Source: a virus. Taken from it: a DNA stretch of 20,358 nucleotides. The notes beneath the pieces are model-generated. The model saw nothing but the letters and a program-made list of their open reading frames with translations. It had not been told where the DNA came from and did not search any database. Location of the stretch: the IMG/VR virus record IMGVR_UViG_3300010354_008521, positions 1-20,358 of that record. One strand, 5' to 3'. The position numbers and the translations under genes are program-made. Shown here one piece after another: positions 244 through 20,073 of the stretch (within the stretch, counting starts at the first letter, position 1; every line of letters begins with the position of its first letter).

Positions 244-935
244 TAGAACCCGTAGAACAACCTTTTAACTGCAATCACTGCGGCAAGAGTTTTATGAAAG
301 AAAAAACTCTCTATGCTCACATGTGCGAGCCAAAGCGCAGAATCATGCAGAAATCAGAAAAACGTGTTCAAGCAGGATTTTTAGCTTTTAACAGATTTTG
401 GGTTATTTCTCAAGGTAGTAGAAAAGAAAAAACCTATGAAGAATTTTGCGATAGTCCTTACTATAATGCATTTGTAAAATTTGGTAGTTTTATTAACAAT
501 GTAAATCCATTGTATCCAGAAAAATTTATGGACTATGTGATAAAAAGTGGTGTTAAACTTGATCATTGGTGTAGGGATGAATTGTACGAAACGTACCTCT
601 ATGAAATTTTAAAGATTGAACCTGTAGAAGCAGCGGTACAAAGATCTTTACAAACCATGATGCAGTGGGCAGACGAAAATAACGCAAATTTTTCTCACTA
701 TTTTAACTATGCAACTTTAAATAGAGCAGTTTTTGATATCAGAAACGGTAATATCAGCGCCTGGATTGTGCTAAATTCAAGCACAGGCCAAACCATGCTT
801 AACAATATGAGCGACGAACAATTGGATATGATCAGCGCAGTAATAGATGTACAATTTTGGAAGAAAAAATTCAAAGAATTTCCCGCTGATGTAGCATTGG
901 TTAAGGAAATTTGCAAAGAAACAGGAATAAAATAA
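240..935 (+). CDS. C2HC zinc-finger protein of unknown function
   Basis: This encodes 231 residues starting at an ATGA overlap with the preceding gene. The N-terminus carries a single finger: C11 and C14 (CNHCGKSF), then H27 and C29 (AHMC), followed by the basic patch EPKRR. This is a C-x2-C...H-x-C zinc-binding arrangement and suggests nucleic-acid or protein binding. The remaining 200 residues are rich in aromatic residues and Asn, with no signal peptide or membrane segment and no enzyme motif I recognise. It ends by sharing one base with the cupin start (TAATG), so it is translationally coupled on both sides. What it does in an operon of heptose enzymes is unknown. The finger is clear; the function is not assigned. 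Confidence 0.75.
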   Translation: MIEPVEQPFNCNHCGKSFMKEKTLYAHMCEPKRRIMQKSEKRVQAGFLAFNRFWVISQGSRKEKTYEEFCDSPYYNAFVKFGSFINNVNPLYPEKFMDYVIKSGVKLDHWCRDELYETYLYEILKIEPVEAAVQRSLQTMMQWADENNANFSHYFNYATLNRAVFDIRNGNISAWIVLNSSTGQTMLNNMSDEQLDMISAVIDVQFWKKKFKEFPADVALVKEICKETGIK

Positions 936-1306
936 TGGTGCAGAAGAAAACACAATTACATGGGTTAGTACCTAAGGGTTGGGGTAGTGAGCTCATATGG
1001 TGCAGTAATGAAAAATACTGCGGAAAGATGATGAATTTTCGCAAAAACGCAAAATTTAGTATGCATTTTCATGCGGAAAAGGACGAAACTTGGCACGTTT
1101 TAAGCGGAAAATTTTTAGTGCGCTATATTGACACAAAGGATGCAAGTCAGCATGAAAAAGAATTAAATGCAGGTGATACTTGGCATAACCCTCCCCTGTT
1201 CCCGCATCAGGTAATTTGCTTAGAAGAGGGCACAATTATCGAAGTTAGCACTCCAGATAGCGTGGAAGACAACTATAGAGTCATGCCAGGAGACAGCCAA
1301 AAATGA
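935..1306 (+). CDS. Cupin-fold sugar-isomerase-like protein
   Basis: The ATG at 935 overlaps the preceding TAA by one base; an upstream TTG in frame is less likely. The 123-residue product begins with a GWGSELIW element typical of sugar-phosphate isomerase-like cupins. It then has the metal-binding cupin motif HFHAEKDETWHVLSG (H-x-H, then E, then H in WHV) and a second motif around NPPLFPHQV, which supplies another His. That supports a single-domain metal-binding cupin, probably acting on a sugar or nucleotide sugar. It lies directly before an ADP-heptose epimerase homologue, with start and stop codons overlapping (ATGA at 1303). Its role is therefore probably in the same sugar pathway, perhaps as isomerase or epimerase. 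The exact reaction cannot be read from the sequence. Confidence 0.8.
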   Translation: MVQKKTQLHGLVPKGWGSELIWCSNEKYCGKMMNFRKNAKFSMHFHAEKDETWHVLSGKFLVRYIDTKDASQHEKELNAGDTWHNPPLFPHQVICLEEGTIIEVSTPDSVEDNYRVMPGDSQK

Positions 1307-2082
1307 AAATTTTAATCACAGGACATAAAGGCTTTATTGGTAAAAACATGGTTGATGCTCTTAAAGATGAGCACGAATTGAAATTTTACGATTGGGGTGG
1401 AGAACTACCAAATTTACGCGATACAGATATATGTATACATCTAGGTGCTATTAGCAGCACCGTTGAAAACAATGTAGATCGAATCATGGAACAAAACTAT
1501 GATTTCAGTAAATGGCTAGTTGAAGAATGCTGGAGATTTAGGGTACATTTTCAATATGCGAGTTCTGCAAGTGTATACGGGTCTGGCACAAAATTCACAG
1601 AAGATTCTCCGGTAGATCCCAAATCTCCTTATGCATGGAGCAAATATCTGTTTGAAAGATATGTTGAAAAATATACATTAAAATGGGAAATGCCTGTACA
1701 GGGATTTAGATATTTCAATGTCTATGGTCCAAATGAAGGTCACAAAGGTAATCAAAGCAGTCCCTTTGAAAAATTTCGAAAACAAGCTAAAGAAACTGGC
1801 ATTATTGAAATATTTGAAGGATCACATGACTTCTATAGAGACTTTGTTCCTGTTAAAAAAGTTGTAGAAGTGCATAGAAAATTCTTTGGTGTCAATAAAA
1901 GTGGTGTATGGAACATTGGAACTGGCAAGCCTAGATCAATATTATCTATTGCCGAAGAAATTGCGGCAGAAACAGGGGCTATGATCAAATATATACCTGT
2001 TCCTAAAAATCTTGCTGTTCAATATCAAAGTTTCACCTGTGCAGATTTAACAAAGTTAAAATCTACCATACCCTATGACTAA
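1303..2082 (+). CDS. hldD: ADP-heptose 6-epimerase-like protein (HldD/RfaD family)
   Basis: This 259-residue protein is an extended short-chain dehydrogenase. The NAD(P)-binding GxxGxxG is G7-G10-G13 (GHKGFIG), the catalytic Tyr-Lys pair is Y110 and K114 (SPYAWSKYLFERYV), and the active-site serines lie in YASSASVYG. GFRYFNVYGPNEGHKG near residue 134 and the C-terminal QYQSFTCADLTKLK closely match the HldD subgroup, which interconverts ADP-D-glycero- and ADP-L-glycero-D-manno-heptose. That is more specific than a generic epimerase call. The enterobacterial enzyme is about 310 residues; this one stops soon after the ADLTKL element, so the C-terminal tail is missing. The HldC- and HldA-like genes follow with overlaps, giving the last three steps of ADP-heptose synthesis in one operon. 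Substrate specificity remains an inference from motif similarity. Confidence 0.87.
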   Translation: MKILITGHKGFIGKNMVDALKDEHELKFYDWGGELPNLRDTDICIHLGAISSTVENNVDRIMEQNYDFSKWLVEECWRFRVHFQYASSASVYGSGTKFTEDSPVDPKSPYAWSKYLFERYVEKYTLKWEMPVQGFRYFNVYGPNEGHKGNQSSPFEKFRKQAKETGIIEIFEGSHDFYRDFVPVKKVVEVHRKFFGVNKSGVWNIGTGKPRSILSIAEEIAAETGAMIKYIPVPKNLAVQYQSFTCADLTKLKSTIPYD

Positions 2083-2476
2083 AGTTATTGTCAATGGTAC
2101 ATTTGATATTTTACACGTTGGACATCTCAAAATGCTTCAGCAAGCTAGAAATATCAAAGACAGTTATGTTTTAGTATTGATAGACAGTGACGACAGGGTT
2201 AAAGAGTTAAAAGGCAATAACAGGCCCATAAACTCGCAAACAGAAAGAAAGACAATGCTTGAATCACTGCGCTATGTTGATGAAGTAAAAATATTTTCAA
2301 GTTCAGACGAACTTGTAAGTATGATAAAAGAATATGCTCCGGACGTAATGGTCAAGGGCAGCGATTACATTGGTAAACCCATAATTGGTGAACAGCACTG
2401 TAAAGAAATACAATATTGTAATTACTTAGATGGATATTCAACCACAAACAAAATTCAAAATATTATTAGTCGGTGA
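2075..2476 (+). CDS. hldC: Heptose-1-phosphate adenylyltransferase-like (HldC / RfaE domain II)
   Basis: This encodes 133 residues, overlapping the end of hldD by eight bases. The nucleotidyltransferase signature is near the N-terminus: GTFDILHVGHLKML, with HVGH at residues 14-17. KGNNRPINSQTERKTML, LRYVDEVKIF, APDVMVKGSDY and the C-terminal GYSTT follow in the order seen in the adenylyltransferase half of bifunctional HldE/RfaE. Related cytidylyltransferases such as TagD share the HxGH motif but not the GYSTT ending, so heptose-1-phosphate adenylyltransferase is the better call. In E. coli this domain is fused behind the kinase domain. Here it is a separate gene placed before the kinase, with a 47-base overlap into it. 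It is expected to be a soluble cytoplasmic enzyme. Confidence 0.85.
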   Translation: MTKVIVNGTFDILHVGHLKMLQQARNIKDSYVLVLIDSDDRVKELKGNNRPINSQTERKTMLESLRYVDEVKIFSSSDELVSMIKEYAPDVMVKGSDYIGKPIIGEQHCKEIQYCNYLDGYSTTNKIQNIISR

Positions 2477-3188
2477 TTATTGCACCGATGAATATATTAT
2501 TGGAACCTGTGACAGGTTAAGCCCTGAGGCACCTGTGCCTGTGATTAAAATAGTAGAAAGGTATACTGGCCCCGGTATGGCCGGAAATGTGAAAGCAAAC
2601 TTAGACAAGTTGGGTACAGACGTAGATTTTGTAACAGCAGAAGCAGTTATTACGAAAACAAGATATATTGATCAAAGATCTAGACAACATCTTCTAAGAG
2701 TAGATTTAGAACCAAAGATTTTCTCATGGAACCGTAAAGTTCCGCAAGCATTAGACAAGTACGACTGTGTTGTAATATCAGATTACAACAAAGGATTTTT
2801 ATCTTACGAAGATATCGAATATCTAATTCAAAATTATAAAGGTCCAATTTTTATTGATACTAAAAAGCCAAATCTATCTCGCTTCAACGGGGCCTTTATA
2901 AAGATCAACGAATTAGAAAATAGAAATAAGACATCTTCAAATTCCAATATGATTGTTACACTTGGTAGTCGTGGTGCTATGTATGGAAACAAAATATTTC
3001 CCACCAAATCCGTAGAAGTTGTAGATGTTTGCGGATGCGGAGATACATTTTTAGCAGCACTAAGTTACCAATACCTAGTGACAAAATCTATCAACGAAGC
3101 TATTATATTTGCTAATAACGCATCTAGCATTACCGTTCAGAAAGAAGGTAACTACGCTCCTACACTGACGGAAATTCAAAATGCCTGA
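2430..3188 (+). CDS. hldA: Heptose-7-phosphate kinase-like PfkB protein (HldA / RfaE domain I)
   Basis: This 252-residue PfkB-family kinase begins at an ATG inside the 3' end of hldC. The N-terminal VGDYCTDEYIIGTCDRLSPE then APVPV is characteristic of the RfaE kinase domain. GPGMAGNVKANLDKLG is the substrate-binding glycine region, HLLRVDLEPK matches the family's conserved L-R-x-D segment, and the ATP/anion-hole motif is VDVCGCGDTFLAA, with D205 as catalytic base (GCGD in place of the usual GAGD). The enzyme is shorter than the roughly 315-residue bacterial kinases. Segments are missing after DKLG and before the MIVTLGSRGAM strand, so it is a compact form. With HldC and HldD it would complete conversion of heptose-7-phosphate to ADP-heptose. 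GmhA and GmhB homologues are not seen here and may come from the host or elsewhere in the genome. Confidence 0.83.
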   Translation: MDIQPQTKFKILLVGDYCTDEYIIGTCDRLSPEAPVPVIKIVERYTGPGMAGNVKANLDKLGTDVDFVTAEAVITKTRYIDQRSRQHLLRVDLEPKIFSWNRKVPQALDKYDCVVISDYNKGFLSYEDIEYLIQNYKGPIFIDTKKPNLSRFNGAFIKINELENRNKTSSNSNMIVTLGSRGAMYGNKIFPTKSVEVVDVCGCGDTFLAALSYQYLVTKSINEAIIFANNASSITVQKEGNYAPTLTEIQNA

Positions 3189-3750
3189 TATTGATATTGA
3201 TTTTGCAGACAGAACAAAAATACTTGATATTATCAAACACGTTCCTGCTACCTTAGAAGATGGCAGGAAACATAATACAGGCGTTTATTGTCAGCAAATT
3301 CCTGTTAATCCAATAACAGGTCAAGCAAGCATAGATTATAATGTTGCTGAAGAGAGAGGATATTTTAAAATAGATTTTCTCAATGTTGGCATATATCAAG
3401 ATATAAAAGACGAAAATCATTTAAATAAGTTGTTGGAGACAGAACCGCTATGGCAGCTTTTACAACACGAAGAGTTTGTAAATCAATTATTTCATTTGAA
3501 CGGTCATGGGGATGTACTGAAAAAGACCTGCCCAACTTCCGTGGAACAATTAGGTGCAGTCCTAGCAATGATACGCCCGGCCAAACGCTATCTGATTGGG
3601 AAAGACTGGACGACGATCATGAGCGAAGTATGGATCAAGCCAGAGACTGGTGAATATTACTTTAAAAAAGCACACGCAATAAGTTATGCTATGGCTGTTA
3701 TAGTTCATATGAATTTGCTTTGCGAAAAAATAAGTTACGATTACTCATGA
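3181..3750 (+). CDS. Miniature DnaE-like (C-family DNA polymerase palm) protein
   Basis: This 189-residue protein opens with PDIDIDFADR, the palm motif of bacterial DNA polymerase III alpha; D3 and D5 correspond to the first two catalytic aspartates. RKHNTGVY (from residue 29) matches the conserved HAGGVV region. YFKIDFLNVG places D65 where the third palm aspartate sits. WQLLQHEEF, then PTSVEQLGAVLAMIRP, and YFKKAHAISYAM (from residue 160) match the later DnaE elements FQLES, the RPGP region and FNKSHAAAYA. The PHP exonuclease domain, most of the fingers, the beta-binding region and the OB fold are absent, against about 1,160 residues for E. coli DnaE. It overlaps hldA by eight bases. It could be an active minimal nucleotidyltransferase, a decoy or a degenerate remnant. 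The homology is clear to me; the function is open. Confidence 0.8.
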   Translation: MPDIDIDFADRTKILDIIKHVPATLEDGRKHNTGVYCQQIPVNPITGQASIDYNVAEERGYFKIDFLNVGIYQDIKDENHLNKLLETEPLWQLLQHEEFVNQLFHLNGHGDVLKKTCPTSVEQLGAVLAMIRPAKRYLIGKDWTTIMSEVWIKPETGEYYFKKAHAISYAMAVIVHMNLLCEKISYDYS

Positions 3751-5844: not shown

Positions 5845-6843
5845 GTGAACGAAATTCAATCTGCTATCCTTAGTTTACTGCCAGCCAAGCGTAAATCTAC
5901 TCCCAGCGGCTGGACCAGTTTTAATGCTGTGTGTTGTCATCATAACGGCGAATCAGCAGATAACAGACAACGTGGCGGGGTACTTGTAAATTCTGAGGGC
6001 GGTATCCAATACCATTGTTTTAATTGTAATTTTAAAGCAGGGTGGTCGCCCGGTAAACTACTATCATCCAATACTAAAAAATTACTGCATTGGCTGGGAT
6101 TAGGCCAAACTGACATAAGCAAACTAGGGTTGGTTGCACTAAGATTGAAAGATGATCAACCAATTAGTAAAAAAGAACTGAGATTTGAACTTGAAGAAAG
6201 ATCACTCCCTGACAATACCCAAAGCATTGATCGATGGCTAGAAGAAGGGTGTAACGATCCTGATCTTGTTGCGGTTATTGATTATGTAGTTAACCAGCGT
6301 CAAATGAAATGGGATTGGTATAAATGGCACTGGAGTGCAACACCAGGATATAGAGATAGAGTAATTATTCCGTTCTATCAAGACGCAAAAATTGTAGGAT
6401 ATACAGGTAGAAAAATTGGCAGTGGTCGTCCAAAATATTTGGCAGATACACAGCCGGGCTACGTTTTCAATTTAGATCAGCAAAGTGATGAGAGAGAATA
6501 TATAATTGCGGTTGAAGGACAGTTTGACGCCATTGCTATAGATGGCGTTGCTTTCATGCATAATGAGCCAAATGATATTCAGTGTGCAAGAATAATTGCT
6601 TTAAACAAAGAAATAATTGTCGTTCCCGATAGAGATCGCGCCGGAGCCAAAATATTAAATGCAGCAATAGAGCATGGTTGGAGTGCAAGCATGCCGCCGT
6701 GGGAAGATGACATAAAGGATGTTGCGGATGCAGTAAAACGGTACGGCAGACTTTACGTGCTAACTACTATATTGCATTATAAAATTTCAGGTGATTTAAA
6801 ATTGAATCTATTAAAGAAAAAGTTGGAATATTTAAATGAGTAA
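5845..6843 (+). CDS. DNA primase, T4 gp61-like (DnaG-type)
   Basis: This encodes 332 residues starting at a GTG (MNEIQSAILSLLP) nine bases after the previous stop. An N-terminal zinc-binding segment uses CCHH around residues 30-33 and CFNC at 58-61. The toprim catalytic domain is clear: E224 in AVEGQFDAIAID and D262/D264 in VVPDRDRAG. Between them lies the core strand region DRVIIPFYQDAKIVGYTGR. T4 gp61 is of similar length, 342 residues. The protein would synthesise RNA primers for lagging-strand synthesis together with the helicase encoded immediately downstream, whose start overlaps this gene's end by eight bases. The annotation as primase is secure from the toprim plus zinc-finger arrangement; assignment to the gp61 group rests on length and the neighbouring gp41-like gene. 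Confidence 0.92.
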   Translation: MNEIQSAILSLLPAKRKSTPSGWTSFNAVCCHHNGESADNRQRGGVLVNSEGGIQYHCFNCNFKAGWSPGKLLSSNTKKLLHWLGLGQTDISKLGLVALRLKDDQPISKKELRFELEERSLPDNTQSIDRWLEEGCNDPDLVAVIDYVVNQRQMKWDWYKWHWSATPGYRDRVIIPFYQDAKIVGYTGRKIGSGRPKYLADTQPGYVFNLDQQSDEREYIIAVEGQFDAIAIDGVAFMHNEPNDIQCARIIALNKEIIVVPDRDRAGAKILNAAIEHGWSASMPPWEDDIKDVADAVKRYGRLYVLTTILHYKISGDLKLNLLKKKLEYLNE

Positions 6844-8278
6844 AACTAATTACAATTACGATATGCAGAAATTGTATCTAGAAATGTTTCTCAGCGATGC
6901 AGAAACGTTTACTCGTTGTCAAAATATTTTTAGTCCGCAAAATTTTGATCAGAAACTGCAGGATACAGCAGAATTCATCACCACTTATGTGGACAAATAC
7001 AAGACTATGCCTGAAGCCAATATAGTGAATACTGCTTGCAGCGTTGAACTTAATCCTGTTGCACTACCCAAGGAACATTATAATTGGCTGTTGAATGAGT
7101 TTGAAAATTTCAGTAGGCATAAAAGCCTTGAGAGAGCAATTCTTAAAAGTGCAGACTTGCTGGAAAAAGGAGATTATGGTCCTGTAGAAAAGCTTGTTAA
7201 GGATGCTATTCAAATTAGCCTAAACAAGAACATGGGCACAGACTATTGGGAAGATCCTAGAGCAAGATTAATGAAACTCAAGGAGAATAACGGTCAGGTC
7301 AGCACAGGTTGGCCCACTGTTGATAAAAAACTCTATGGCGGTTTCAAACGCGGTGAACTCAATATCTGGTGTGCTGGATCAGGTGGTGGTAAGTCTCTAT
7401 TTCTTGCCAATCAAGGACTTAACTTTGCACTGGCTGGACTGAATGTAATTTATTTTACATTTGAGCTAAGTGAAGAACTAGTCAGTATGAGACTAGACAG
7501 TATGGTCACTGGCACTGCTACTAGAGAAATTTTTAAGAATCTTGACGATGTTGAAATGAAAGTTAAGATGATGCGTAAGAAAGCCAGTGAGATACAGGTT
7601 GTATACATGCCCTCAGGCAAAAACTGCAACGACCTTAGGTCCTATCTAAAAGAATATCAAGTTAAATTTGGCAAAAAGCCTGACGTAATTCTAGTAGACT
7701 ATTTAGATCTAATGATGCCTTTGAGTATCAAAGTAAGTCCCAGCGATCTGTATGTCAAAGACAAATATGTGTCAGAAGAACTACGAAATCTAGCAATGGA
7801 AACGCAATGTGTAGTTGTGACTGCAAGTCAGTTGAATAGAGCAGCAGTTGAAGAAATTGAATTCGATCACAGTCATATTTCAGGTGGATTGAGTAAGATT
7901 CAGACTGCTGACAACGTAATTGGCATTTTTACAAGTCGTGCTATGCGTGAACGTGGTCGTTATCAAATTCAGTTTATGAAAACACGTAGCAGCAGCGGTG
8001 TGGGACAAAAAGTTGAATTAGACTTTAACATAGACACACTGCGTATCACAGATCCTGGTGAGGAAGAAGCTGAAGCAAATCTAAGTCAAATGCGTTCAAA
8101 TTCTAATAATAATATCATGCAAGGCTTACGTAGAACCAGTGTAGTGAGCAACACAGCTACCGAGCAAGAATCTGTAGATCCCACTCAGGGAGTGTCTATA
8201 AACAAACTAAAATCTAAAAATCAATCAGCGCCGCTGATTAGATCCTTCTTAACTGATATTAGTCCAGAAAAAGATTAA
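6836..8278 (+). CDS. Replicative DNA helicase, T4 gp41-like (DnaB family)
   Basis: This 480-residue protein matches the size of T4 gp41 (475). An N-terminal helical domain of about 130 residues is followed by the RecA-like motor: STGWPTVDKKLYGGFKRGEL leads into Walker A, AGSGGGKS (residues 180-187). Walker B is VILVDYLDLM near residue 283, the glutamine-containing motif is VVVTASQLNR, and the arginine/loop element is KTRSSSGVG. These are the DnaB-family motifs in their normal order. It would form the hexameric 5'-3' helicase at the fork and recruit the primase encoded just upstream. The tail after about residue 410 is polar and low in complexity. The gene ends tail-to-tail with the YqgE-like gene, the two stop codons sharing TTAA at 8275-8278. 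Confidence 0.94.
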   Translation: MSKTNYNYDMQKLYLEMFLSDAETFTRCQNIFSPQNFDQKLQDTAEFITTYVDKYKTMPEANIVNTACSVELNPVALPKEHYNWLLNEFENFSRHKSLERAILKSADLLEKGDYGPVEKLVKDAIQISLNKNMGTDYWEDPRARLMKLKENNGQVSTGWPTVDKKLYGGFKRGELNIWCAGSGGGKSLFLANQGLNFALAGLNVIYFTFELSEELVSMRLDSMVTGTATREIFKNLDDVEMKVKMMRKKASEIQVVYMPSGKNCNDLRSYLKEYQVKFGKKPDVILVDYLDLMMPLSIKVSPSDLYVKDKYVSEELRNLAMETQCVVVTASQLNRAAVEEIEFDHSHISGGLSKIQTADNVIGIFTSRAMRERGRYQIQFMKTRSSSGVGQKVELDFNIDTLRITDPGEEEAEANLSQMRSNSNNNIMQGLRRTSVVSNTATEQESVDPTQGVSINKLKSKNQSAPLIRSFLTDISPEKD

Positions 8279-8826
8279 AAATACGATTTAACTTTAATTT
8301 GTATGGATTGCTGCAAACAAGCTTCCCATAGAATATCGTGATCTGTATTGAACACGTTGTCGATGTCTGCAGGTAATATTTCCCATTTAAAGGGATCTAA
8401 TGGGTCTCTTTCTTTACCAAGGTGTTTGTCTAATCTGCCTTTATCAAACAGCCAATATCCTGCACAGGCCTTGAGATAAGCCGGACCTTCATCTTGAGCT
8501 ATAGCCATTAAGATGCTAATATCATGTGTAACACCTATGCTGTTTGTTAAGGGTATGGTACCAACCCCTCTCCAATCTAAGCTATGGATAATATGCACCT
8601 TGTCCACAGCAATATTACCGCCGTACCATATAGGGTCATTACCGTAATACTGAATATTTAAATTTCTAGCAATTGAAGATAGTGTGTTGTCCGTCTGTAA
8701 CTTGTTTATTTGCAATGCTATACTAACGTCTTTTGTATGGCTTAAGCATAACAAAACAGCCCGAGATAGATCATCTTCTGGGTTAGTAGGATTAGCTATT
8801 AATAAATTTCCTGCATAATTTTTCAT
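8275..8826 (-). CDS. YqgE/AlgH (DUF179) family protein
   Basis: This 183-residue protein matches the landmarks of the YqgE/AlgH family. The N-terminal NLLIANPTNPEDDLSRAVLLC corresponds to the family's start where D-P-x-F-x-R-S-V occurs. IWYGGNIAVDKVHIIHS fits the GGP...D-x-x-x-x-x-H segment, AGYWLFDKGRLDKHL the GYAGWGPGQLE segment, and WEILPADIDNVF the W-x-x-x-PAD-x-x-x-x-F ending. Family length is about 185 residues, so this is full length. The bacterial protein's biochemical role is poorly understood; AlgH was linked to alginate regulation. I infer a phage copy of a host gene. It is transcribed alone, divergent from the nucleotidyltransferase, across a palindromic promoter region. Confidence 0.8.
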   Translation of the reverse strand: MKNYAGNLLIANPTNPEDDLSRAVLLCLSHTKDVSIALQINKLQTDNTLSSIARNLNIQYYGNDPIWYGGNIAVDKVHIIHSLDWRGVGTIPLTNSIGVTHDISILMAIAQDEGPAYLKACAGYWLFDKGRLDKHLGKERDPLDPFKWEILPADIDNVFNTDHDILWEACLQQSIQIKVKSYF

Positions 8827-8863: not shown

Positions 8864-9562
8864 ATGCTATTACGAGAGTTTGAACTACCCGTAGGACAAA
8901 ATGTTGTGTTAAATCCCAAACTATGGGATAAGGATTCTCTTAAGGGAGAAATAAAAACCGCCCTGTTGCGTATAGCTAAAGACTTTTTAGAATATGTAGA
9001 TGTGCCAGTTAAAGTAATAGACATTGTGATTGCTGGCGGCAATGCCAACTATACCTATACCAATAAATCAGATTTAGATCTACATATAATCGCAGATGTA
9101 GACTCTACTCCTTGCGACAGAGAAGCAATGGAGCTATTTGATACTAAGAGATTGCTGTATAAAAGAGATCACGATATCACTGTTAAAGATATTCCTGTAG
9201 AACTTTATATAGAAGATGTTAAAACACCTGCTGTCAGCGCAGCCTATAGTTTGTTGACCAACAAATGGGTTAGAGAACCAGAAAGAAAAACAGTCAGCTA
9301 TGATCAAAAAGCAGTGAGCAAAATGGTTAAACTTTGGAAAACTGTTTTCAAAGGTGCAATAAGAACAGGCGATTTACAAACCTGCCGCAATGTGTTAAAA
9401 TTGTTAAGGGAGTTTAGAAAAAAAGGTTTAAAAACTGCGGACGGAGAATACAGCGTTCCAAACCTAGTTTACAAAAGCCTTAGAAACGATCAATCTCTTG
9501 AAGGTCTAGTAACATTAGTTAATAAATTACACGACAGAGAACTTAGTCTAAAAGAACAATGA
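8864..9562 (+). CDS. Nucleotidyltransferase-fold protein
   Basis: This encodes 232 residues. The Pol-beta-type nucleotidyltransferase signature is AGGNANYTYTNKSDLDLHI: a G-G/S helix start at residues 58-59, then D70 and D72 as metal-binding acidic residues. VELYIED (about residue 112) supplies the third acidic position. The C-terminal half is helical and basic (KMVKLWKTVFKGAIRTGD, LLREFRKKGLK), possibly for RNA or nucleotide binding. The substrate is not evident; relatives include tRNA-modifying enzymes, antibiotic adenylyltransferases and MNT antitoxin-like proteins. Its stop overlaps the start of a nucleotidase-like HAD gene (ATGA), so the two probably act in the same process. It is transcribed from a late-type promoter. 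Confidence 0.8.
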   Translation: MLLREFELPVGQNVVLNPKLWDKDSLKGEIKTALLRIAKDFLEYVDVPVKVIDIVIAGGNANYTYTNKSDLDLHIIADVDSTPCDREAMELFDTKRLLYKRDHDITVKDIPVELYIEDVKTPAVSAAYSLLTNKWVREPERKTVSYDQKAVSKMVKLWKTVFKGAIRTGDLQTCRNVLKLLREFRKKGLKTADGEYSVPNLVYKSLRNDQSLEGLVTLVNKLHDRELSLKEQ

Positions 9563-10086
9563 AAGAACTATATATTCCAACCCTATATATAGATATGGAC
9601 GGGGTTGTTGCGGACTTTAACGGATTTGCGTCAACTGTTTTAAGAGAACCTGTAGATGCTTCTACAGAAAAGTGGACGACAGAGCAATGGAACAAACTGA
9701 GATCTCATCCCGGCCTCTACAAGCATCTACCAAAAACAGCCAAAGCTGACGAAGTAGTTAATCTAGCTAGAAAGTTTAGAAATTATTTAGGTTGGCGTGT
9801 CTACATGTTAACAGCGGTGCCTAAAGCCAACGATGTACCTGATGCTTTTTCAGACAAGATTTACTGGATGCTAAAGCATTATCCGGATATTGCAGTAAGA
9901 TTTGGTCCTTTTGCCAAAAACAAAAAAGATCATTGTCGACCTGGAGATGTGTTATTTGATGATCGTCCTAGCAACTGCGAGGAGTGGATTCAGGCGGGAG
10001 GCCGAGCAATCCTAGCCAAAGATCTGGATCGTGCAGTATTAGAATTGAAAGAATTGTTTGAAGATGAACGTCAATATGATACATGA
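9559..10086 (+). CDS. HAD-family 5'(3')-deoxyribonucleotidase-like phosphatase
   Basis: This 175-residue protein has HAD motif I at YIDMDGVVADF, with D12 as nucleophile and D14 as acid/base. Motif II is in YMLTAVP, motif III is the Lys-rich FAKNKKDHC, and motif IV is VLFDDRPSN with the paired aspartates. The spacing and the LTAVP segment fit the NT5C group of 5'(3')-deoxyribonucleotidases, which dephosphorylate deoxynucleoside monophosphates. GmhB, the heptose bisphosphate phosphatase missing from the sugar operon, is also a HAD enzyme. This protein lacks GmhB's zinc-binding cysteine cluster, so I do not assign that role. It is coupled by ATGA overlap to the nucleotidyltransferase upstream. 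Confidence 0.83.
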   Translation: MKELYIPTLYIDMDGVVADFNGFASTVLREPVDASTEKWTTEQWNKLRSHPGLYKHLPKTAKADEVVNLARKFRNYLGWRVYMLTAVPKANDVPDAFSDKIYWMLKHYPDIAVRFGPFAKNKKDHCRPGDVLFDDRPSNCEEWIQAGGRAILAKDLDRAVLELKELFEDERQYDT

Positions 10087-10140
10087 TTCTATAAATTCAA
10101 TGTTTTGGTAATTGATATTTACCCAAAGCTAAGTATTGAT

Positions 10141-11211
10141 ATGAATAAACTAAAGATTTGTGTTTACGCTATCTGTAACGGTGAGCGTCATTTTATACCT
10201 AGATGGATTGAAAGCGCAATGCCCGCAGATTATATTGTAATTTGCGATACAGGCAGCAAGGACGGCGCAGGAGAACTTGCCAAAACGTTGGGGGCAACAG
10301 TCTATAATATTTCCGTTAATCCTTGGAGATTTGACATTGCAAGAAATACAGCGGTAAGTTTATTGCCAGAAGATGCAGATGTCTGCATAAGCTTAGATAT
10401 AGACGAAATATTGCAGCCAGGATGGCGCGAAGAAATTGAACGTGTTTGGATTAAAGGTGAAACCAATAGACTAAAATACATGTTTGATTGGGGTGCAGGG
10501 ATTCCTTTCTATTATGAAAAAATTCATGCAAGACATGGCTTTGTATGGAAAAATATCATTCACGAAGTTGTAGCAGCAGATCCAAGAACTGTAGAGAAAT
10601 GGGCCACTACTAATTTTCTTCTAGCAATTCATAGACCAGATCCTACTAAACCTCGCAGTCAATACATGCCTATGTTAGAAGCGGATGTGAAGGATAATCC
10701 TTACAATCCTCGTAACAGTTTTTATTTTGCAAGAGAATTAACCTTCCATAGTCGCTGGGAAGAATGTATTAGAGAAGTAGAAAGATATCTTAAACTTGAC
10801 AACACTTGGAAGAGTGAAAGAATGTACGCACTGCGTATACAGGGACAGGCTTATAGTGAATTGAAACAGTTTGATTTAGCCCTGCAAAGTTATTTAAAAT
10901 CTGTAGAAGAGTGGCCTCTCAGCAGAGAACCTTGGATCGATCTTGCCACTCACTATCTCATGCACAGCAATTTTCAACTTTGTCTTGAAGCAGCAGAAAA
11001 AGCCATTGCAATCACAGACAGAGAAAATACTTACACCGTTGATCCTAGTGTGTGGGGAGGAAAGGCGTGGGACATGGCAGCATGGTGTTGTTGGAACTTA
11101 GGAATTTTTGACAAGGCATATGAATACGGATCTAAGGCTGCAGAACTAGATCCCGCTGTTGAACGTTACAATTTCAATCTACAGTTTTATAAAAGCAAGG
11201 TGCAGCAATGA
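10141..11211 (+). CDS. Glycosyltransferase family 2 protein with C-terminal TPR-like repeats
   Basis: I start at the ATG at 10141, which places KLKICVYAICNGERHFI at the N-terminus; a TTG 36 bases upstream is less likely. The first 230 residues form a GT-A domain: VICDTGSKDGAGELAK is the nucleotide-sugar-binding strand and helix, and ISLDIDEIL holds the metal-binding D-x-D (D86, D88). FDIARNTAV is also typical of this family. From about residue 200, paired helices such as NSFYFARELTFHSRWEECI and QGQAYSELKQFDLALQSYLK are TPR-like. The product has 356 residues, a common length for such proteins in marine T4-like phages. The acceptor could be a virion protein, DNA or host glycan, and ADP-heptose made by the upstream operon is a possible donor. 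That link is speculation. Confidence 0.85.
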   Translation: MNKLKICVYAICNGERHFIPRWIESAMPADYIVICDTGSKDGAGELAKTLGATVYNISVNPWRFDIARNTAVSLLPEDADVCISLDIDEILQPGWREEIERVWIKGETNRLKYMFDWGAGIPFYYEKIHARHGFVWKNIIHEVVAADPRTVEKWATTNFLLAIHRPDPTKPRSQYMPMLEADVKDNPYNPRNSFYFARELTFHSRWEECIREVERYLKLDNTWKSERMYALRIQGQAYSELKQFDLALQSYLKSVEEWPLSREPWIDLATHYLMHSNFQLCLEAAEKAIAITDRENTYTVDPSVWGGKAWDMAAWCCWNLGIFDKAYEYGSKAAELDPAVERYNFNLQFYKSKVQQ

Positions 11212-15452: not shown

Positions 15453-16691
15453 ATGAACAAAACTGACCTACTGACCAAAAGTAAAACCTTCTGCATGTTT
15501 CCCTGGCTGCACCTATTTGTGTCTCCCAGAGGCACAGTCTATCCCTGCTGCAGTCACAGTCAGAGAACAGAGGCTTTTGGCAACACAAAAACGCAGGCAC
15601 TGGCCGATGTGTTTAACAATGAACAGATGCGCACACTGCGCATGAACATGCTTGAGGGCAAGCCCAGCCCAGTCTGTGAAATGTGCTATACCTTTGAACG
15701 CAGGGGCGCGCACAGTTACAGACAATTTGCCAACGAACGATTTGGAGAAGAATTTCACAGTGTGGTTCCTTCCACGCTGCCAGACGGTAGAGTGCCCGAC
15801 TTTCGCATGCTCTACATTGACGTGAGATTCAGCAATCTCTGCAACTTCAAGTGCAGAACCTGCGGTGTGGAATACAGCAGTCAGTGGGCCACAGAAACCA
15901 AGTTAGTGAACAAGCAGAAAGCAAAGCCCAACACAGATCCCACACTGCTGCATGCAGATCCATCAGGTAAACTGCTGAGAGAAATTGCACAGCATCTAGA
16001 CCATGCCAAAATCATCTACTTTGCAGGCGGGGAGCCCATGATGATGGAGGAACACTATGAAATCCTGCAGCAGTTAATCGCCCAAGGCCGTAGAGATATC
16101 ACACTGCGCTACAATACCAATGCCAGCAGCTTTAAGTTCAAGGACAGAGACATCTGGCAGCTATGGCAGCAGTTTGATAGAATTGAAGTTAGTGCCAGCA
16201 TAGACCACTACGGCGAACGTGCAGAATATATACGCACAGGCACAGATTGGGCTGCTGTGGAAAGCAATTTGATCTTGTTGAGACAGCAACCAAACATAGA
16301 CTTCCAGATCAACACAGTGCTCAGTGTGTTTAACTATGCCACACTGCCAGAGTTCTATCAGTATTTGGTGGATAGAGACCTATACAGGCCTACTGATCGC
16401 TTTCACTTCATGGTGAACACAAACTATCCAGAATTCTACAGTGCAGCAGTGCTGCCTAGATGGATCAAAACAGCTGCCACCGAGAAAATACTGGCGTTGA
16501 GAGATTGGGCCAGACAGCAGGACAACTGGAGCATGGTCAGTAACCTAGAGCACGGTGTCCAGCATGCCAACTCAGAGCATACCTGGGTGCAGCATAGAGA
16601 TCGATTGAGAACACTGACTAGAGAATTGGATCAAATTAGAGGCACAGATGTGGTGAAGACATTTCCTGAATTGAGATCCCTATGGCGCTAG
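15453..16691 (+). CDS. Radical SAM protein with N-terminal SPASM/twitch-like cysteine domain
   Basis: This 412-residue enzyme has the radical SAM [4Fe-4S] motif at C130-x3-C134-x2-C137 (SNLCNFKCRTCGVEY) and the GGEP motif later (YFAGGEPMMMEEHYEIL). Before it lies an auxiliary cysteine region: CMFPWLHLFVSPRGTVYPCC (C14, C32, C33), a GN, and CEMCY (C75, C78). That pattern is the SPASM/twitch signature, which usually follows the radical SAM core but here precedes it. Such proteins use SAM radical chemistry on peptides or sugars, often with a second iron-sulphur cluster. The gene is monocistronic and divergent from the SGQPR glycosyltransferase. No precursor peptide gene is evident nearby. The substrate is unknown. 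I consider the family assignment secure. Confidence 0.9.
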   Translation: MNKTDLLTKSKTFCMFPWLHLFVSPRGTVYPCCSHSQRTEAFGNTKTQALADVFNNEQMRTLRMNMLEGKPSPVCEMCYTFERRGAHSYRQFANERFGEEFHSVVPSTLPDGRVPDFRMLYIDVRFSNLCNFKCRTCGVEYSSQWATETKLVNKQKAKPNTDPTLLHADPSGKLLREIAQHLDHAKIIYFAGGEPMMMEEHYEILQQLIAQGRRDITLRYNTNASSFKFKDRDIWQLWQQFDRIEVSASIDHYGERAEYIRTGTDWAAVESNLILLRQQPNIDFQINTVLSVFNYATLPEFYQYLVDRDLYRPTDRFHFMVNTNYPEFYSAAVLPRWIKTAATEKILALRDWARQQDNWSMVSNLEHGVQHANSEHTWVQHRDRLRTLTRELDQIRGTDVVKTFPELRSLWR

Positions 16692-17419: not shown

Positions 17420-17914
17420 CTAGTGTATTTCAAAGGTAAGATGCAGTCTATAGTCATAACCTGAATTAACAAAGGTATGATAGTGTGAGTTGTTTACTAT
17501 ATAAACTGCTCCTGTAGCGGGTAGATGAAATGCACGATCTTCATAGACAAATCTTGCACCTTCGTTGGTTATTAAAGGTATATGCAAACACACACGGCCC
17601 CTATCACAATGCCAATTGTAAGCGCAGTTTGGATGTATACTTCTATAGTTAACACTGTTAAAGTTTAGATAACGTTGAAGATGATTGGCCACAGTGAGTG
17701 TGTAGGGCATGAACTTTATGTGTTCTTTATACACTGAATTAAACTGTAGATTATGACGTAGTTGAACGGGTATGCGGGCTAGAACACCGTCATCTGAGCC
17801 TCCAAGCCATGGTTGCATGAGAGGTTGAATCTGCGCAGCGTACTCACTGAGTAATTGCTGAAGATCCACTGAATAATCAGCTAGAGGCTCTATATACTGT
17901 ACTGCAGGCAGCAT
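17420..17914 (-). CDS. 2-oxoglutarate/Fe(II)-dependent oxygenase (Asp/Asn beta-hydroxylase-like)
   Basis: This 164-residue double-stranded beta-helix protein has the iron triad: H102-x-D104 (YNWHCDRGRVCLHIPL) and a distal His (H146 in NNSHYHTFVNSG). R156 (YDYRLHLTFEIH) is positioned to bind 2-oxoglutarate. The H-x-D...H...R arrangement and the P-L near the HxD motif fit the aspartyl/asparaginyl beta-hydroxylase branch. The likely reaction is hydroxylation of a protein or small-molecule substrate. It begins at an ATG exactly five bases after a GTAAATA late box, so it is expressed late. Oxygenases of this type are recurrent in marine T4-like phages. The substrate is unknown. Confidence 0.85.
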   Translation of the reverse strand: MLPAVQYIEPLADYSVDLQQLLSEYAAQIQPLMQPWLGGSDDGVLARIPVQLRHNLQFNSVYKEHIKFMPYTLTVANHLQRYLNFNSVNYRSIHPNCAYNWHCDRGRVCLHIPLITNEGARFVYEDRAFHLPATGAVYIVNNSHYHTFVNSGYDYRLHLTFEIH

Positions 17915-19997: not shown

Positions 19998-20073
19998 TGG
20001 TGGGTCCTGTGAGATTCGAACTCACGACCAACAGATTAAAAGTCTGCTGCTCTACCGACTGAGCTAAGGACCC
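19998..20073 (-). tRNA. tRNA-Lys (UUU anticodon), CCA encoded
   Basis: The minus strand reads GGGTCCTTAGCTCAGTCGGT at the 5' end, with the anticodon loop CTTTTAA (UUU) and the T-arm GTTCGAATC. The seven-base acceptor stem GGGTCCT pairs with AGGACCC, and the discriminator A is followed by a genomic CCA (20000-19998). All arms are intact, so it should be functional. It would decode AAA and AAG lysine codons, which the AT-rich left region uses heavily. Its first ten bases overlap the end of the upstream CDS. Confidence 0.97.

Follow-up and report, generated by a model that had tools for sequence, protein, structure and literature searches.

A phage ADP-heptose gene cassette whose cupin probably takes the place of the isomerase GmhA

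The subject of this report is a gene cassette in a virus fragment, the IMG/VR record IMGVR_UViG_3300010354_008521, of which 20,358 bases were analysed and are termed the window. Four genes, encoding a cupin and HldD-, HldC- and HldA-like proteins, lie head to tail on the + strand at 935-3188. It is considered likely that they form an ADP-heptose cassette in which the cupin has replaced GmhA as the sedoheptulose-7-phosphate isomerase; the grounds are the identity of the genes, their kept motifs, the folds of two models, a near-universal linkage of the cupin with heptose kinases, its mutual exclusion with GmhA and the exchange of the two genes in place. The sequence-only reading of this DNA had described a reduced set of the three terminal pathway enzymes behind a cupin. 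Open reading frames (ORFs) and TIGR family matches confirm the four genes with an overlap at each junction, and the three Hld-like genes probably make ADP-heptose, but the description was incomplete: the cupin, overlooked as a neighbour, is probably the missing first enzyme, so that the cassette would cover four of the five pathway steps rather than the three terminal ones. The cassette comprises the following features.

935-1306, + strand: cupin, 123 amino acids, proposed sedoheptulose-7-phosphate isomerase isofunctional with GmhA; PF07883 31 bits, PF01050 23.4 bits
1303-2082, + strand: HldD-like ADP-heptose 6-epimerase, 259 amino acids; TIGR02197 221.8 bits, PDB 1eq2 at E 1.5e-46; Y110, K114 and K148 kept
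2075-2476, + strand: HldC-like heptose-1-phosphate nucleotidyltransferase, 133 amino acids; TIGR02199 111.5 bits; HxGH and GYSTTNK present, no STTR5 Arg
2430-3188, + strand: HldA-like (PfkB) heptose-7-phosphate kinase, 252 amino acids, shortened; TIGR02198 152.4 bits; N160xxE163 and GCGD205 kept
2430-2476, + strand: out-of-frame HldC/HldA overlap of 47 nucleotides, one DNA segment encoding both the C-terminus of HldC (GYSTTNK...) and the first residues of HldA (up to KILLVG)

Linkage of the cupin with heptose kinases and its exchange with GmhA

The cupin is the most constant companion of the Hld-like genes. Loci were collected in seeded sets, mostly of about 80, among the matches listed. The 82 viral loci reached through the window kinase (L012-L093) contain HldC in 78, the cupin in 74 and HldD in 54; the 80 viral loci reached through the mini-HAD, a small cyanophage protein discussed below (L094-L173), contain HldA and the cupin in 73 each and HldC in 67, and under strict cuts GmhA was found in none of either set. 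An alignment led by the cupin of phage Bellamy gave 79 loci (L187-L265; the 80th, L107, was left out of the count as it was already in another set), with HldA in 57, HddA in five and neither in 17, several of which are ended by the contig. Among 50,697 phage records searched with tblastn, the window kinase occurs in 35, of which 27 are named Synechococcus, Prochlorococcus or cyanophage; the cupin occurs in 35 as well, and 31 records are common to both. The four cupin-only records represent three phages (Bellamy twice, SynMITS9220M01 and AG-345-E15), and in one Bellamy record and in SynMITS9220M01 the cupin adjoins genes for an HddC-like transferase, whose second-best family in SynMITS9220M01 is HddC, and for a kinase resembling HddA, which scores 278.8 and 286.7 bits, respectively, against a cut-off of 600. 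The kinases of the two heptose routes are unrelated, HldA of the ADP route being a PfkB protein and HddA of the GDP route a GHMP protein, and GmhA catalyses the first step of both routes. The company of the cupin with both kinase families thus fits a role in the GmhA step, the one that the two routes share. One cupin-HldC fusion (L068, 6314-7102) and one mini-HAD-GmhA fusion were the only fusions that a scan detected besides 23 HldA-HldC ORFs. A short HldA-HldC fusion with the kinase first was also observed at 6763-7902 of L175, a phage-like contig from a Neomarinimicrobiota bin.

Around heptose kinases, the cupin and GmhA are mutually exclusive. The counts refer to 6-kb flanks in two scans that were seeded regardless of the isomerase, with at least 100 bits for the cupin and at least 60 bits for GmhA; counting a cupin match of any strength as the cupin was rejected in favour of this stricter recount, because matches of 40-50 bits, as in L477, L524, L544 and G248, belong to another cupin family. 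The HddA-seeded set (L309-L388, 80 loci) contains the cupin in 21, GmhA in 37, neither in 22 and both in none, and the set seeded with full-length HldA (L389-L468, 80 loci) contains the cupin in 25, GmhA in 24, neither in 31 and both in none (one-sided Fisher p 1e-7 and 1.5e-5, values which overstate independence because the loci are related). Combined, 46 of the 160 kinase loci have the cupin, 61 have GmhA and none has both, and under laxer counts (cupin 31 and GmhA 25 in the full-length-HldA set, 21 and 37 in the HddA set) there is again no locus with both. Heptose kinases were detected in 18 of the 35 GmhA-seeded loci (L274-L308), and the cupin in 0 of these 18. As a control under the laxer cuts, GmhB accompanies GmhA in 12 HddA-set loci and the cupin in seven HldA-set loci, which indicates that the cupin-type and GmhA-type clusters do share other genes. 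Lineage-bound avoidance is seen in some further pairs as well: in the HldA set, GmhA and HldD occur together in 2 loci (p 0.0017), and in the HddA set 0 loci have the cupin with GmhB (p 0.019).

The search was extended to whole records, hand-chosen from the loci and in part near-copies. Where GmhA occurs with a heptose kinase (35 records), the cupin family was present in one, L329; the one other match, of 50 bits, is to a different cupin. Where the cupin occurs with a heptose kinase (55 records), GmhA was present, at E limits of 0.01 and 1e-5, in one, which is the same L329. Nine HddA records have neither gene in the vicinity; five of them carry the cupin elsewhere, and L344, one of the other four, carries a GmhA-like gene (60.6 bits) elsewhere. 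The kinases of L344 and the cupin-bearing L343 are identical.

Moreover, the two genes are exchanged in place, and the cupin thereby has gmhA's position and partners in heptose gene clusters. The DNA of L333 and L334 is 83% identical along the 4.8 kb before the exchanged gene, with hddA, iscU and iscA, and about 80% identical after it; this gene is GmhA in L333 (7769-8353, or from an internal ATG; TIGR00441 204 bits) and, at the same place, the cupin in L334 (7761-8195). Similar breaks around the same genes separate L327 from L364 and L329, as well as L323, L340 and L315 from L333, and the exchanged cupins are 35-39% identical to the window cupin. Parsimony on quick kinase trees requires at least four changes between the cupin and GmhA states for HddA, whose tree has long branches, and at least five for HldA, where laxer labels were used. 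GmhA appears to have been replaced, not simply left to the host. An HddA-like kinase beside iscU and iscA is seen in both members of the first pair (5989-8353 in L333 and 5989-8920 in L334), and in L334 a 242-amino-acid ORF follows the cupin.

Properties of the encoded proteins

The isomerase function is proposed because the cupin exchanges with GmhA; the fold is not the basis. The two proteins are unrelated (hhalign probability 0.1%; different fold), so the cupin is not a GmhA in the sense of an SIS-fold homologue, and it may work like one. Its PF07883 match is over the cut-off, and Pfam also gave weak phosphomannose isomerase and D-lyxose isomerase matches. The AlphaFold2 model (72 sequences) is a single cupin barrel with a mean predicted local distance difference test score (pLDDT) of 92.5, and its fold neighbours include archaeal phosphomannose isomerase (Z 14.2-14.3) and D-lyxose isomerase (Z 13.7-13.8), which stand among, not above, many cupins. 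Across 299 cupin loci, overlapping contigs counted in, the metal-ligand pattern H44, H46, E51 and H91 is kept in 99-100%, as are K14, W16, G17, E19, Y28, C29, K31, S42, K49, E103, S105, D112 and R115; the three kept lysines and an arginine, together with the metal pattern, would suit a sugar phosphate. One GTDB scan yielded six relatives in cellular genomes, of which L175 and L176, near-identical to each other, lie on phage-like contigs, and in one order the cupin was found in 1 of 194 genomes, which is the seed itself. A cupin 55% identical to that of the window is encoded in Marinoscillum pacificum (L178, 9986-10372, on a 133-kb contig), where no heptose gene was found within the 20-kb locus and no clear GmhA in the genome.

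As for the three Hld-like proteins, profile searches gave the respective Hld family as the best NCBIfam family of each (TIGR02197 at E 1.2e-65, TIGR02199 at 2.9e-32 and TIGR02198 at 1.5e-44, values far outside chance), as the sequence-only reading had expected from the motifs EGHKG (HldD-like), GYSTT (HldC-like) and DRLSPEAPVPV (HldA-like), all of which are present; each score lies under the curated cut-off, and the names are therefore given as "-like". Alignment with HldE of E. coli K-12 revealed that the kinase motifs NxxE and GxGD are kept, with N160, E163, G202, G204 and D205 invariant, and that the transferase retains H14-x-G-H17 and the C-terminal GYSTTN; in the epimerase, GxxGxxG (G7, G10 and G13), Y110, K114 and the EGHKG lysine K148 are invariant relative to E. 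coli HldD. The catalytic residues of these families are among those kept. In the transferase, Tyr occupies the position of the Arg in the promiscuity motif STTR5, the hallmark of CTP/UTP use according to excerpts of PMC11573728, and ADP-heptose is for this reason the expected product.

The shortness of the kinase and epimerase, already remarked upon in the sequence-only reading, is real. Compared with E. coli HldE, the window kinase has two gaps, one of about 26 residues after position ~64 and another of about 20 near position 170, and the same holds for its phage relatives, the 82 related viral kinases having the short form in common with 238-261 codons from the first strand to the stop (median 245). 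The AlphaFold2 model of the kinase (80 sequences) has a mean pLDDT of 95.3, and its top seven Foldseek matches are all HldA chains of Burkholderia cenocepacia (4e8y/4e84, E 3e-20 to 3e-17), followed by ribokinase (E 6e-14). The best PDB relatives of both the kinase and the epimerase are heptose enzymes. Neither loss of the kinase or transferase active site nor a closer relationship of all three proteins to unrelated nucleotide-sugar enzymes was found. The overlaps measure 4 nucleotides between cupin and HldD and 8 between HldD and HldC, and that between HldC and HldA reaches at least 47 nucleotides in 75 of the 76 pairs counted.

Proposed pathway and competing explanations

It is proposed that the cassette would be a cargo module making ADP-L-glycero-beta-D-manno-heptose in the infected cell. 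The cupin would convert sedoheptulose 7-phosphate to D-glycero-D-manno-heptose 7-phosphate, which is the GmhA step, and the HldA-like kinase would turn the latter into the 1,7-bisphosphate. A phosphatase from outside the window cassette (of the host, or GmhB or the mini-HAD in other phages) would remove the 7-phosphate, whereupon the HldC-like enzyme would make ADP-D,D-heptose and the HldD-like epimerase would give the L,D form. All of these enzyme activities, that of the cupin above all, and the use of the sugar are what we infer.

No GmhA or GmhB ORF was found in the 20,358-base window fragment, in agreement with the sequence-only reading. GmhB (TIGR00213) matched in 2 of 20 virus records, both under the cut-off, and the heptosyltransferase family GT9 (PF01075) was over its cut-off in only 2 of 17; the phosphatase is absent in viruses according to excerpts of a commentary on Tang et al. 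2024 (PMC11461863). For the cyanophage cassette, the mini-HAD is a putative missing phosphatase. This protein of about 110 amino acids, labelled "phosphoheptose isomerase" in cyanophages (T4-GC 306; e.g. L002, 13312-13656), was considered as a GmhA and ruled out by its HAD pattern DxDxT...K...DD and by its TIGR01689 and PDB HAD matches. The nine mini-HADs aligned all have DIDxTIC, a TxR motif, K and an IDDK- or IEDK-like end, and all nine match the TIGR01689 capsule phosphatase (best 3.8e-9; the first member scores 35.2 bits, cut-off 162); in the PDB their profile matches 9iqw (E 1.9e-17) and 1xpj. A mini-HAD fused to GmhA beside an HddA-like kinase (L304, 7656-8486) may explain the label, and a gene so named has been used as a marker of auxiliary metabolic genes in marine phages (PMC9238414, excerpts). 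Searches for gmhA at E 0.01 gave no match in eight complete cyanophage genomes.

Extending the proposal beyond the window, we favour, with somewhat more reserve, the view that this mainly viral cupin family is the isomerase of the ADP- and GDP-heptose routes of phages, that it has been exchanged with GmhA several times, and that together with the mini-HAD it makes the cyanophage route complete and self-sufficient in hosts without lipopolysaccharide (LPS) heptose, the sugar serving the surface of the virion or of the infected cell. Heptoses and 3-deoxy-D-manno-octulosonic acid are absent from cyanobacterial LPS according to excerpts of a review (PMC4390846), and Synechococcus elongatus, taken as a control genome, gave no gmhA match; in such hosts a phage would need its own first step.

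Several points weigh against the interpretation of the cupin as a GmhA replacement, in addition to the relatedness of the loci and the quality of the trees mentioned above. Neither gene lies within 6 kb in 53 of the 160 kinase loci, and the L329 record carries both. L486 and L488 have the cupin without a kinase, albeit on short contigs of 5.0 and 12.6 kb; the lack of an HddA match in five cupin-only records tells neither way. The clear in-place exchanges belong to the HddA route; the short-kinase group of the window shows linkage, with no exchange observed. The fold matches of the cupin are non-discriminating, CapF, quercetinase, KdgF and others scoring alike, and the window cassette is without a phosphatase. 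Finally, the HldD-like (221.8 bits against 274.6), HldC-like (111.5 against 181.5) and HldA-like (152.4 against 345) scores all fall under the curated equivalog cut-offs, which makes a substrate other than heptose possible.

The host of the window phage may have GmhA, and the host enzyme might supply heptose 7-phosphate for ADP-heptose, the cupin acting later or alongside, for instance as an epimerase or heptose modifier. It is general knowledge that Gram-negative hosts with heptose LPS have GmhA; phage records name the cupin a cysteine dioxygenase or a nucleotidyltransferase, and its non-specific fold matches and the one record with both genes would agree with such a role. We nevertheless regard this explanation as unlikely, since a later role leaves both the mutual exclusion and the in-place swaps with GmhA unexplained, as well as the company of the cupin with two unrelated heptose kinases, and since cyanobacterial LPS is free of heptose and S. 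elongatus gave no gmhA match. Clearly less probable still is the notion that the kinase, transferase and epimerase act on another sugar phosphate to give a different nucleoside-diphosphate (NDP) sugar, with the cupin as its isomerase. PfkB kinases, cytidylyltransferases and SDR epimerases are indeed broad families, and all three scores are low as stated, but heptose enzymes are the best family and PDB relatives of the kinase and epimerase and the best fold matches of the kinase, and GmhA, the partner with which the cupin swaps, is known to act on sedoheptulose 7-phosphate. The idea that the cassette is decaying cargo, with an inactive short kinase and genes being lost, is scarcely credible: the kinase and epimerase are shorter than those of E. 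coli, and 46 of 65 window relatives are without the cassette at the site, but 82 viral kinases retain the short form together with active-site residues that do not vary, and the frames are open both in the window and in L012, whose kinase is 92% identical.

If the replacement of GmhA by the cupin is true, a second, unrelated fold performs the first step of manno-heptose synthesis, which to our knowledge has been known only from the SIS-fold GmhA. A widespread phage gene called cysteine dioxygenase or nucleotidyltransferase would gain a function, and the "phosphoheptose isomerase" label on cyanophage genes would denote a phosphatase, at least in the nine proteins examined. Since NDP-heptoses are immune agonists (PMC11461863, excerpts), viruses making them end to end would be of relevance beyond phage biology.

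Cassette site and relation to known systems

The site that holds the cassette is bounded by two genes, which overlap the cupin gene by 1 nucleotide and the HldA-like gene by 8 nucleotides, respectively.

240-935, + strand: upstream flank gene, phrog_11058, with an N-terminus like a C2H2 zinc finger; left boundary of the cassette site
3181-3750, + strand: downstream flank gene, small DNA-polymerase-like protein, 189 amino acids, phrog_11778; right edge of the cassette site

At this site the cassette represents accessory cargo, because the cassette genes are absent there in 46 of 65 relatives, in which the zinc-finger gene often directly adjoins the polymerase-like gene. The polymerase-like neighbour served as the seed for 80 loci (79 new ones and L027), of which these relatives are the 65 with more than 3.5 kb upstream. 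HldA, HldC and the cupin are found together at the site in 13 of the 65, with HldD too in 10 of these; five others have a cupin match without HldA (one of them with HldC) and one has HldD alone. Three of the cupin matches without HldA (L477, L524 and L544; 40-48 bits) are of an unrelated cupin family. In L477, a window relative of 357 kb, HldA and the cupin occur elsewhere in the record, as does a GmhB-like gene, and no GmhA match was obtained.

The polymerase-like protein starts with PDIDIDF and ends with FKKAHAxxYA, stands beside the cassette in 28 loci and occurs in at least 586 viral stretches; the two motifs presumably resemble fragments of DNA polymerase III alpha, and a PDB search with the protein gave no match at E 0.1. 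The replicative helicase of the window (6836-8278) has its nearest relatives in jumbo phages, Pseudomonas phage PA5oct and Agrobacterium phage Atu_ph07 among them, at about 49% identity, from which the source is probably a jumbo myovirus rather than a cyanophage. The window further contains genes for an AlgH-like protein (8275-8826), an NT5C-type nucleotidase (9559-10086), a TPR protein with a weak GT2 domain (10105-11211), a SPASM radical SAM protein (15453-16691) and an Asp/Asn hydroxylase-like protein (17420-17914), and a tRNA-Lys(ttt) at 19998-20073.

The cassette as such is not new, since cyanomyoviruses carry the same set. In P-SSM2 (PSSM2_309-313), HldC- and HldA-like genes, a "phosphoheptose isomerase", a "cysteine dioxygenase", which is the cupin, and an HldD-like gene lie together. 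S-CAM1, S-CAM3, S-SSM7 and Sf-FS3 have the same group, some with insertions, and S-SM2, P-TIM68 and Sf-CH8 show other gene orders or no detected HldD. This cyanophage cluster (T4-GC 304-308) resembles the window in its adjoining HldC-, HldA-, cupin and HldD-like genes and in the same shortened kinase, but it adds the HAD of about 110 amino acids and often adjoins tail-fibre genes, whereas the window has the order cupin-HldD-HldC-HldA, no HAD and a place beside replication genes. Cyanophage heptose genes have been mentioned before (PMC7378029, excerpts), as has the occurrence of rfaE in pelagimyophages (PMC7029224, excerpts).

The E. coli pathway of HldE, HldD, GmhA and GmhB shares with the window the kinase, nucleotidyltransferase and epimerase with the same motifs; there, however, HldE is fused with the kinase first, GmhA (SIS) and GmhB (HAD) are separate proteins, and no cupin takes part. 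The work on NDP-heptose enzymes of Tang et al. 2024 (PMC11461863, PMC11573728) likewise counts viruses among the organisms with functional heptose enzymes, and ADP-heptose was made in its assays, but the excerpts of the two articles mention no cupin isomerase. Among known cupin isomerases, archaeal phosphomannose isomerase (7zvm/7zvy) and D-lyxose isomerase (7nzo/2y0o) are single barrels like the window cupin (Z 13.7-14.3), from which they differ in their 14-22% identity and their hexose or pentose substrates, and other cupins score equally well. The general idea of cupin sugar isomerases is that of Iyer et al. 2021 (PMC7824862), whose jumbo-phage sugar clusters place cupin-fold sugar isomerases with PfkB kinases, nucleotidyltransferases, epimerases and HAD phosphatases in cyanophages; heptose has 0 occurrences in the text seen, which names neither the replacement of GmhA nor the step, and the assignment to the heptose step goes further. 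A cupin as heptose-pathway isomerase or GmhA replacement was not found in the open-access literature, subscription papers being mostly outside the search. The cassette is thus probably an ADP-heptose cassette of known kind, in which the novelty resides in the probable non-homologous isomerase.

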